Assembly (NCBI RefSeq): GCF_002165775.1
Contig: NZ_NDYP01000004.1
Span: 1 to 64,000, forward strand
Length of the DNA: 64,000 nt
Direction: 5' to 3'
Source: Campylobacter concisus
GTDB lineage: Bacteria; Campylobacterota; Campylobacteria; Campylobacterales; Campylobacteraceae
Below, piece by piece: positions 39,322-43,306 of this stretch. Made by a program: the position numbers and the translations under genes. Under the pieces are notes generated by a model. The model had not been told where the DNA came from and ran no database searches. It saw nothing but the letters and a program-made list of their open reading frames with translations. The number at the start of each line of letters is the position of its first letter. The stretch's first letter is position 1.

Positions 39322-39966
39322 TTACATTTTGTCTTTAGTGACGATTAAGAGCATTTTAAATTTATCTTTTATCTTTAATCCGTGTGGTATTTTGCCTGGA
39401 AGCACGATGGTATCGCCTTTTTTGATATCAAAATGTTCATCACCAATAGTTAGCTTCATCTCGCCATCAAGTGCGATAAGTAGTGCATCGCCTGGTGCTG
39501 CGTGAGTTGAGAGCTCTTGGTCTGTGTCAAAACTAAGTAATGACATTGAGCCGTTTTCGTTCTTTACGAGCGTTTTGCTCACGATTTTGCCTTTTTCGTA
39601 TTCGACTGCATCAACTAAGCTAAAAATAGCTGCCTTAGGTAAATGATCTATCATTAAATCCTCCTTAAAATCAATTGAAATATATTTCGTTGGTTCGTTA
39701 AAAACTAGCTTGCGCCACACTTTTTTCTCTATCAGGCAAGCTTGCTCATTGCCTATATGCATCTGCTTTTCGCCGTAGTATAGGCTAGCACCGCCTTCTA
39801 CAACCCATGCGAGGCTATCGCAAAACAGCATCTCATGATCTAGCTCCTCGCCTGTATCAAAAGCAAATACATCGACATGAGCGTTCTCGCAATCAAAAAT
39901 TCTCTTGCTAACAACGCTTTTAGAAATAACCTTTGTGTCAGCATTTAGATTGTAAATTTTACTCAT
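39322..39966 (-). CDS. Bicupin domain protein
   Basis: Soluble protein of 214 residues with two cupin barrels. The first (about 25-100) contains DTGEELDHEMLFCDSLAWVVEGGASLYYG. The second (about 135-210) contains ELSTHAAPGDALLIALDGE and KGDTIVLPGKIPHGLK with metal-type His residues. The ATG at 39966 is preferred over an upstream open start because AAAGGAAG lies just before it. A regulatory or sensing role in metal/small-molecule binding is possible; function is unknown. It stands alone with its own promoter and terminator. Confidence 0.8.
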   Translation of the reverse strand: MSKIYNLNADTKVISKSVVSKRIFDCENAHVDVFAFDTGEELDHEMLFCDSLAWVVEGGASLYYGEKQMHIGNEQACLIEKKVWRKLVFNEPTKYISIDFKEDLMIDHLPKAAIFSLVDAVEYEKGKIVSKTLVKNENGSMSLLSFDTDQELSTHAAPGDALLIALDGEMKLTIGDEHFDIKKGDTIVLPGKIPHGLKIKDKFKMLLIVTKDKM

Positions 39967-39994
39967 TTTTCTTCCTTTCGTAAATTTACACGTC

Positions 39995-40000
39995 ATTGTA
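39995..40000 (-). promoter_or_regulatory. -10 box for the bicupin gene
   Basis: TACAAT on the minus strand about 30 bases before the ATG at 39966. Confidence 0.45.
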
Positions 40001-40142
40001 GTAAAAATTTTTGGACGATTTGTTGATAAGGATTATCTACTGATTCAAAATATAGGTTATCGTTTTTTAAGATAATATTTTAAACATATACCCAATTTTA
40101 CTATAAAAAACAATTTTTGCTATATTTATATATTTTCATATT

Positions 40143-41576
40143 TTAATCAAAATCTAAAATTCCTCTTGAAAGGTCCTTAAAATACTTATCTTTATATACA
40201 TTATGAATTATCTCTCTGTTATCAAATTCAACAATATAGTTGAGAATCTCTTTTAACCTATCGCTAATATCTTCTCGTATAAAAATATCAATAATCTTTC
40301 TAATATTTTTTGCTCGTATAGATTTTCCAATAGATATTGATTCCATTTGATATTTTATTTCGGTCAAAGCAATTTTTATTTGCTCTTCAGTTAGCATCTT
40401 AAATAAGGAATCATAATATCCAACCGCTCCTGGAGATACGCCTTGACAATAAGTTACTTCTCTACCAATTCTACATTCCAAGAAAGTTTTAATAATTTTT
40501 TCCTCTCTATCATTAGGAATATCTGACGGTTGCGAAATATACTTCATAATTTTTTTTGCTATTGGTGGTTCATGGTAGTAATTATCCCATTCATTATGAA
40601 CAGTATGCAAATCATCACATAAGCCACTAATTTCCAAACTTCGCTCCGTCAATGACAAATAAGGTAAACCATCACAGTACTCCAAAAACTTATAAGTTAA
40701 GTCTTCTTTATTCTTTTGAAGATTATTACGAAAAAAAAGCTTCTTTTCGCCTATATCATATTTGATATCATCTCTACAGTATTTCCAAATTTCCTTTGAT
40801 AGTTTAAGAACATTCTCTCTTGCTTCAACACTTGTACTTTCTACAATAAATATACCGAATAATCCACGCAATAAAGTACCTGACATAACTGAAGAAAATT
40901 TTTTAACTTCCTTTCCTATTGTTCCAATCGTTATATCATCCAATAAACTAGTACTCTTTTTTATTTGTTCCACAATTTTTTTTATATGTACAGCTGAACT
41001 AGAAGGCTTATCGTTTATTACTTCTGTTACACATGTTTTTAACCATCCTAATAATTCAAAAGAATTAATATTATATGAATTTGGATGAGATGCACCTATC
41101 TGATTTCTCATATCCAATATGTGACACAATTTTAAGTATACAACACTTGATATCCATTCTAACTTTCTTAGAGTTTCCAACATTGTTTTATCTTTAATTC
41201 CAAGAAGGTCATCTTCATTTTTGTATTGCTCTCTTACTTTATCTGCGACTGCATTATCAAAAAATGTATCAATACCAAAATAGATTATTTTTTGTCGTAA
41301 ACTTATAACTACTTCATTCCAAACATAATTTAACGAAGCATCAAAAAGTCCTATGGCTGCACCTGCAACAAATCTTGACAAATATGTCGCATCTCTTTTT
41401 TGGTTTTCTGGAATGGAATTCATTAATTGCGGCAGCATTTTCATTATGTTTTCACGTTCATCTACTGAAGCAATTATATTTTCAGAGGGTAATCCCAAGT
41501 CATTTAACATTAATTCAAATTTCGTGACTTTCTCAACTAAACTTCCACCACTTTCAACAATCTCAATATTAGACAT
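40143..41576 (-). CDS. Unknown protein with HEPN-like RNase motif (putative defence/abortive infection protein)
   Basis: A 477-residue protein of no recognised named family, mostly helical. Residues 150-170 contain DMRNQIGASHPNSY, with Arg157-Asn158 and His164 spaced as in the R-x4-6-H active site of HEPN ribonucleases found in toxins and abortive infection proteins. About 80 residues of helix precede the motif and a long helical region follows (180-477). The gene and its flanks look more AT-rich than the neighbours, and it sits alone between guaA and the bicupin gene, suggesting acquisition. The ATG follows AAGG, with a TATATT box upstream at 41598-41603. No antitoxin partner is visible beside it. 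Confidence 0.6.
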   Translation of the reverse strand: MSNIEIVESGGSLVEKVTKFELMLNDLGLPSENIIASVDERENIMKMLPQLMNSIPENQKRDATYLSRFVAGAAIGLFDASLNYVWNEVVISLRQKIIYFGIDTFFDNAVADKVREQYKNEDDLLGIKDKTMLETLRKLEWISSVVYLKLCHILDMRNQIGASHPNSYNINSFELLGWLKTCVTEVINDKPSSSAVHIKKIVEQIKKSTSLLDDITIGTIGKEVKKFSSVMSGTLLRGLFGIFIVESTSVEARENVLKLSKEIWKYCRDDIKYDIGEKKLFFRNNLQKNKEDLTYKFLEYCDGLPYLSLTERSLEISGLCDDLHTVHNEWDNYYHEPPIAKKIMKYISQPSDIPNDREEKIIKTFLECRIGREVTYCQGVSPGAVGYYDSLFKMLTEEQIKIALTEIKYQMESISIGKSIRAKNIRKIIDIFIREDISDRLKEILNYIVEFDNREIIHNVYKDKYFKDLSRGILDFD

Positions 41577-41597
41577 TTGTTTACCTTATACAAAAAT

Positions 41598-41603
41598 AAT
41601 ATA
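41598..41603 (-). promoter_or_regulatory. -10 box for the HEPN-like gene
   Basis: TATATT on the minus strand about 22 bases before the ATG, in an AT-rich gap of 197 bases after guaA. The gap also holds two copies of CTAACTCG (41655-41662 and 41720-41727) of unknown meaning. Confidence 0.35.
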
Positions 41604-41773
41604 ATCAATTCATTCATCTTATTAATCAACAGTTTAATAGACATCACACACAAACTAACTCGATTCAGCAAAATTCCATTTTCTATATCTTATACCATAT
41701 ACAAGAAAATTTTATATTCCTAACTCGTTATAATGTATTATTTTCAAGAAATTCATAGCAGAAGCATTTATTG

Positions 41774-43306
41774 CTACTCCCACTCTATCGTTGCGGGCGG
41801 TTTGCTCGAGATATCGTAAACTACGCGGTTTATGCCATTCACCTCGTTTATAATGCGGCGGCTTACATTTTCAAGTAGATCATAAGGGAGCCTTGAAAAG
41901 CTAGCAGTCATGCCATCGCTCGCATCAACCACGCGCACGCACACGGCGTTTTCATAAGTGCGGTTATCCCCCATTACGCCGACTGAATTTACGTTTAAAA
42001 GCACGCAGAATGCCTGCCAAGTTTTGTTGTACCAGCCAGTGCTCTTTAGCTCGTCGCGTAAGATCACGTCAGCTTTGCGAAGTAGTTCAAGGCTTGGTTT
42101 ATTTACTTCACCCATGATACGAATAGCAAGGCCCGGTCCTGGGAAAGGATGACGGAATACTAGATCACGGCTTAATCCGAGCTCAAGACCAAGCTTTCTA
42201 ACCTCATCTTTAAAAATTTCTCTTAGTGGCTCAATTAGCTCAAATGTCATCCAATCAGGCAAGCCGCCAACGTTGTGGTGGCTCTTTATGGTCTTACTTG
42301 AGCCAACGACTGAGCTTTCGATGATATCAGTATAAAGAGTGCCTTGAGCTAGAAATTTCACATCGCCATGCTTTTTAGCCTCTTGCTCAAAAATTTCTAT
42401 AAATATCTCGCCTATGATCTTGCGTTTTTTCTCAGGATCAACGACGCCAGCTAAGCGGCTAAGAAAGATCTCGCTCGCATCTATGCTAACTAGCTCAACA
42501 CCAAGCTTTGTTCTAAATGTAGCTTCAACTTGCTCTTTTTCGTTTGTTCTAAGAAGTCCGTTATCAACAAAGACAAGGATCAAATTTTCAGGCACAGCAG
42601 CCGCTAAAAGTGCCGCGGTCACGGAGCTATCCACGCCGCCACTAACTGCACAAAGCACCTTGTGAGTGCCTACTGTTTTTCTTATCTCTTCTATCTTGTT
42701 TTTAGCAAAGCTTCCCATGTTCCATGTGCTCTCGCAACCACAAATATATTTAGCGAAATTCTTTAGAATTTGCGTGCCGTATTCGCTATGTTGCACCTCT
42801 GCGTGGAACTGGATCGCATAAAATTTTCGTTTATCATCGCCAAAAGCACAATAAGGCGAATTTTCACTAACAGCGATCACTTCAAAGCCCTCTGGCAAGT
42901 CCTTTACATAGTCGCTATGACTCATCCATACGATTTGTTTTGAAGGTGTATCTTTAAATAGTGCATGCTCTTTAATAACGCTAAGCTCAGCCTTGCCATA
43001 CTCTTTTTGATCAGCTGCTAAAACCTCCGCTCCATGCGTGTGAGCAAGTAGCTGCATGCCGTAGCAAACGCCAAGTATAGGGATGTTTAACTCAAAGACG
43101 CCGTTATCGCAAAAATAAGCATCTTTAGCATAAACACTAGCTGGACCGCCACTTAAAATGATACCTTTTGGCTCTTTTGCCTTTATCTCACTAAGCTTTG
43201 CATTAAATGGCAAAATTTCAGTGTAGACACCTTCTTCTCTTAGCCTTCTAGCTATTAGCTGAGTGTATTGCGAACCAAAATCCAAAACTATAATCGTATT
43301 GTTCAT
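41774..43306 (-). CDS. guaA: GMP synthase (glutamine-hydrolysing)
   Basis: Converts XMP to GMP using glutamine. The class I amidotransferase half has [11 protein letters not shown] with the catalytic Cys, and a later [11 protein letters not shown]. The synthetase half begins with the P-loop [14 protein letters not shown] and ends KPPATIEWE, the universal GuaA C-terminus. 510 residues, normal. It follows nhaD by 10 bases on the same strand, so the two may be co-transcribed. Confidence 0.97.

Follow-up and report, generated by a model that had tools for sequence, protein, structure and literature searches.

P0001, the product of a lone gene of Campylobacter concisus, is likely to be a self-sufficient anti-phage protein, gained by horizontal transfer and representing a new HEPN family; in it, an autoinhibited RNase would be released upon infection. 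Its gene occupies positions 40143-41576 of the reverse strand within a stretch of 64,000 nucleotides of contig NZ_NDYP01000004.1 (hereafter, the window). The presence of a HEPN domain is close to certain. A role in phage defense, which the initial annotation had proposed for this single gene, is very probable, being supported by the patchy presence of the gene, an insertion site shared with defense genes, the mobile contexts of its relatives, the lack of a recurrent partner and remote kinship with the defense protein PD-T7-3. On present evidence P0001 does not embody a new principle: its sequence family is new, but its kind is known. Of the earlier suggestion of a possible new effector, the novelty of the sequence family is therefore retained, while the type of system is one already described.

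The gene, its putative active-site motif and the predicted fold

Re-reading of the sequence returned exactly the open reading frame, coordinates, strand, length of 477 residues and DMRNQIGASHP motif given in the initial annotation. The frame is intact over its 477 codons, and a Shine-Dalgarno-like AAGG, identified by direct reading (41584-41587, reverse strand), lies 7 nt 5' of the ATG. As had been described, no other gene separates it from guaA (41774-43306) on one side or from a bicupin gene (39322-39996) on the other, both likewise on the reverse strand, and it is flanked by AT-rich DNA (GC content of 0.19-0.24, versus 0.295 for the gene and 0.374 for the whole window). The promoter attributed to it did not hold up, promoter-like matches around the gene being no commoner than chance (12 versus 12.9 in shuffled sequence). 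No terminator for the gene was recovered in a scan of the region and no Rfam match exceeded its gathering score at the locus. Also, no antitoxin-like ORF occurs within the 1.7 kb insert holding the gene, in agreement with the absence of an adjacent antitoxin noted previously.

The predicted active site (41085-41108, reverse strand) has the form R157-N158-x5-H164 followed by P165, within residues 155-165 (D-M-R157-N158-Q-I-G-A-S-H164-P165). A bare R-x4-6-H is weak evidence, because among the 50 ORFs that reach 150 aa in the window, 24 contain it; RN-x3-5-H occurs in two of these 50. The motif of P0001 is significant because of its conservation among relatives: all 92 aligned proteins share R157, N158, H164 and P165, at identities down to ~24%. 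Other residues identical in all rows of this alignment (A3) include D79, W86, E88, W264, N332 and E336. Since one of the two seeds used in the genome scan for relatives was the motif pattern itself, conservation was rechecked with relatives recovered by tblastn only. The same four residues were kept in 11 of 11 diverse proteins picked in this manner, including a Klebsiella protein at 18% identity, and also in a Campylobacterota relative obtained by profile search (L123).

AlphaFold models built with an alignment were all-helical, as had been anticipated for the remainder of the protein, both for the whole of P0001 (pLDDT 90, pTM 0.78) and for residues 34-212 (pLDDT 89, pTM 0.82). HEPN domains consist of two alpha-hairpins with an insert between helices 2 and 3, and the superfamily is marked by R-x4-6-H with a polar residue after the arginine and, in many families but not all, by an acidic helix-2 residue, frequently within Ex3[KR] (Anantharaman et al., PMC3710099). 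P0001 carries the motif and, according to the models, the two-hairpin topology with its insert, over about residues 57-190 (41007-41408, reverse strand; helices 64-75, 78-100, 144-160 and 172-187, insert 102-138). The acidic candidates of helix 78-100 are D79 and E88; the spacing from E88 to R94 is x5 and not x3, and E88 is missing in some distant relatives. A wide separation or burial of R157 and H164 had been named as an outcome that would speak against the initial proposal; in the model R157 and N158 are placed at the end of helix 144-160, and H164 in the adjoining loop before helix 172-187.

Whole-protein Foldseek searches of the PDB and of viral libraries gave only weak solenoid matches (those named being of the HEAT/ARM/PUF type), and for this reason the domain spanning residues 34-212 was folded separately. 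When this N-terminal part was compared with the full PDB, a check proposed in the initial annotation, HEPN structures ranked first: 25 of the first 27 chains were HEPN proteins (among them AF0298, MntA-HepT, the SO_3166-SO_3165 pair, Csm6, 1wwp, a HEPN toxin, MtlR and YutE), and the remaining two were one unnamed archaeal protein. Single matches are weak (E 0.37-2.9, the best being 0.37, none passing E 0.001), so that it is the rank pattern that constitutes the fold evidence. The HEPN-like character claimed for the motif is in this way upheld by its invariance, by the helix topology and by the fold search alike.

The C-terminal part of the model, from about residue 213 to 477 (40146-40940, reverse strand; pLDDT mostly >90), is a helical solenoid that we regard as the putative sensing or regulatory half of the protein. 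It contains a second conserved patch, N332-x3-E336-P337 (40566-40583, reverse strand), to which the invariant N332 and E336 belong.

Comparison with known systems and proposed mechanism

The closest parallel is PD-T7-3, a single-gene defense whose function was confirmed in E. coli challenged with phages (PMC9519451) and which is listed among HEPN proteins (PMC10952713). Like P0001, it is a stand-alone protein, of ~430-530 aa, with an N-terminal HEPN domain (motif R[NH]xxxHP), and it shares the guaA-bicupin site, where it was found in two sister genomes. The motif spacing differs, being R-x6-H in P0001 and R-x4-H in PD-T7-3, and the likeness concerns the HEPN part (residues 64-240). Over this part, hhalign of alignment A3 with seven PD-T7-3 proteins paired 168 columns and kept RN...HP in register, with P=1.1e-4 and a probability of 56%, against P 0.2-0.3 for the reversed alignment used as control, weakly suggesting a remote relationship. 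The PADLOC model of PD-T7-3 (PDLC04108) gave no match to P0001 at E<=10.

BxaP of Akkermansia, discovered through its structural likeness to PD-T7-3, joins an N-terminal DUF4145/HEPN-type domain to a C-terminal HEAT-like part and is reported to be likely abortive (PMC10799925). P0001 resembles it in being the product of one gene, with a HEPN-type N-terminus and a helical C-terminal part, a likeness of reported architecture. BxaP resides inside BREX or type I R-M loci, whereas the P0001 family has no fixed neighbor. P0001 had no Pfam match to DUF4145, and hhalign against eight DUF4145 proteins was non-significant (P=0.035), as was the comparison with an Abi_C set, in which only a 16-residue motif aligned. 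AbiJ/Abi_C proteins (PF14355) share RN-x5-H with P0001, but their HEPN domain is C-terminal. P0001 has, by prediction, the layout of PD-T7-3 and BxaP and is a member of neither sequence family; its own family would enlarge the small group of single-gene defenses that combine HEPN and helical repeats.

In the mechanism that we propose, the HEPN domain would be a metal-independent endoribonuclease using R157, N158 and H164. A lone active HEPN RNase without an antitoxin must be held inactive, hence the solenoid, with its N332/E336 patch, is predicted to restrain the RNase and to sense infection. Infection would release the HEPN site, probably as a dimer, and the freed domain would cut host or phage RNA and bring phage production to a halt; abortive infection, the mode reported for BxaP, is the likeliest course. 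RNase activity, autoinhibition, trigger, RNA target, dimerization and cell death are each inferred; abortive infection through RNA cleavage, taken as a whole, is a reasonably probable outcome.

Direct immunity, in which the HEPN protein would protect without killing the cell, e.g. by cutting phage transcripts, appears unlikely. RNase LS and LsoA, both HEPN proteins, act on viral RNA (PMC3710099), and 9 of the 21 systems of an E. coli screen provide precedent for this mode (PMC9519451), yet BxaP, a PD-T7-3-like HEPN/HEAT protein, behaves as abortive (PMC10799925). More doubtful is the idea that the solenoid, with its invariant N332 and E336, is a distinct sensor of a nucleotide messenger or of a phage structural protein, which would make P0001 the representative of a new self-contained class of sensor plus HEPN RNase. 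Sensing of a nucleotide messenger would fit the location of a motif-less relative (L124) next to a gene encoding a DAC (DisA-type) domain. The sources searched yielded no known trigger for PD-T7-3 or BxaP, nor any activity, toxicity or phage data for the P0001 family; autoinhibited RNase activity remains the preferred reading, and the existence of E. coli homologs, WP_001460374 being one, makes the family open to direct testing.

Distribution, transfer and neighbors of the family

None of the Pfam, PADLOC or NCBIfam models matched P0001 at E<=10, and no match was found among PDB sequences. The earlier statement that the protein fits no family is correct for these three model collections and incorrect for phrog_27609: this PHROG, matched over its positions 2-409 of 418 with E=3.4e-82, is the family of P0001 itself and is catalogued without any function. 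The family is uncatalogued yet widespread. The scan of the genome collection produced 193 confirmed relatives, 80 of which were retained, and members extend over at least nine phyla, conjugative plasmids and prophages included. They occur in 75 PLSDB plasmid records, on 20 viral contigs and in 54 of 5426 complete E. coli genomes (34 chromosomal, 20 plasmid); a tblastn search of phage records gave no match even at E 10. A family found in nine or more phyla and in ~1% of complete E. coli genomes is absent from Pfam, NCBIfam and PADLOC.

Within the genus, the gene is present in one of 48 genomes, its own genome counted (tblastn), a patchy occurrence at odds with the universal presence that the initial annotation had regarded as contrary to its proposal. 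Six weak tblastn matches from sister genomes (L002-L007, E between 1e-4 and 1e-3) had the appearance of remnants and were all dropped after inspection of one of them, L004, which proved to be a spurious match on the antisense strand of a permease gene flanked by pth and lysA. In a 78-row tree P0001 is sister to a Veillonella atypica protein (support 100/96) within a Bacillota clade, and this nesting is taken as indicating horizontal acquisition of the gene. Over the same tree, the nine phyla require 18 label changes, versus a minimum of 8.

Inspection of 112 loci of the family revealed neither a recurrent neighbor of at least 80 aa, apart from recombinases (tyrosine type in 16, serine type in 13, types assigned by reading the sequences), nor a widely conserved small ORF in the flanks. 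Neither in the window insert nor recurrently among these loci was an adjacent nucleotidyltransferase antitoxin of the HEPN-MNT kind found. These observations bear on the proposal that P0001 is an RNase toxin which helps to maintain a plasmid or island, is paired with an antitoxin that is hidden or encoded in trans, and has no part in phage defense. The many plasmid-borne relatives and the HEPN toxins known in toxin-antitoxin pairs (PMC3710099) would agree with such a role; the lack of any conserved partner, together with the chromosomal location of the Campylobacter copy in a defense hotspot, in an insert devoid of antitoxin-like ORFs, makes it quite improbable.

Neighbors of family genes elsewhere include Drt3, nearby in a P4-like satellite, an adjoining type ISP restriction domain and MazF, AbiJ-NTD3/Abi_C (adjoining a distant Listeria relative) and the anti-phage protein Ppl. 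When 132 close neighbors were scanned with PADLOC, CBASS, Shedu, Septu, Ppl and R-M genes were recovered. The control set happened to include a type I R-M locus and gave matches to almost the same number of models, so that the scan was not clearly richer and no enrichment is claimed.

In E. coli (L008, L009 and L010), a block consisting of a BCCT transporter, a DUF2254 protein, the HEPN protein and an integrase recurs on a plasmid, in a chromosomal island and next to a P4-like satellite that carries Drt3. On pSymA of Sinorhizobium meliloti (L018, 1967-5708), two ORFs, one for an SMC-like ATPase and one of 436 aa (as read from the sequences), adjoin a distant relative and possibly form with it another multi-gene defense locus.

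The guaA-bicupin site and motif-less relatives

The occupancy of the integration site was assessed by blastn and tblastn in the 23 sister genomes in which guaA and the bicupin gene were found together. Homology with the sister genomes ends at ~40038 on one side and, on the other, at 41774, the stop codon of guaA, delimiting an insert of ~1.7 kb (40039-41773) that runs from this stop codon to 43 bp short of the bicupin start. In the 23 resolved sites the gap between the two genes varies from 102 bp (L170, the single empty site) to 5 kb. The site (in the window and in loci L158-L179) is a genus-wide hotspot with cargo that differs in most genomes.

Genes of defense class, as judged by PADLOC or Pfam, occupy 9 of the 23 sites. 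They comprise Hachiman HamAB (E 1e-203 and 2e-98), Nhi/AbiO (Nhi 7e-132), PD-T7-3 (1e-117), HEC-06/GmrSD in two genomes (5e-66), AIPR/AbiU, a type II methyltransferase cluster and a candidate PDC-M49A. The site is not purely defensive, because 9 of the 23 sites hold a pyrimidine-dimer glycosylase (Pyr_excise) and DUF1722; an NAD(P)H oxidoreductase and a fragment of an FAD oxidoreductase were also found. That P0001 is an accessory gene unrelated to defense, which landed in a generic insertion site, would be in keeping with such cargo and is nonetheless very improbable in view of the HEPN active site, the remote PD-T7-3 kinship and the defense neighbors seen in other phyla.

A PHP-ATPase is also among the cargo of the site. 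In L169 (2670-7145), a cytosine methyltransferase is accompanied by ORFs for HSP90-type ATPases and by a 445 aa ORF that no Pfam model matches; this cargo may constitute an uncatalogued restriction-like system. Being compact and genus-wide, the guaA-bicupin site is a suitable place for seeking additional Campylobacter defense genes.

It is also very improbable that the HEPN domain binds RNA with no catalytic role, P0001 then being a regulator or sensor: for HEPN domains that lack the motif, MtlR for one, RNA binding has been proposed (PMC3710099), MtlR is among the Foldseek matches and motif-less relatives exist (L124 to L126), but R, N and H are invariant in the main family and pure binding would not need them.

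The motif-less relatives were found in two settings. L124 (140-1964) encodes a more distant relative of 446 aa. The ORF directly before it, of 164 aa, has a DAC (DisA_N) domain (Pfam 4.7e-7), which suggests a connection between this lineage and a nucleotide signal. In two genomes of the same order, a protein of 280-300 aa is encoded adjoining prfA (L125, 955-1851, and L126, 1009-1851, both on the reverse strand). These two proteins resemble the region of HEPN helix 2 and the insert (~residues 83-155; E 5e-9 and 4e-5), lack the RN-H motif and end in a tail of RRKDD-type repeats, and are possibly catalytically dead HEPN proteins that serve in another role.
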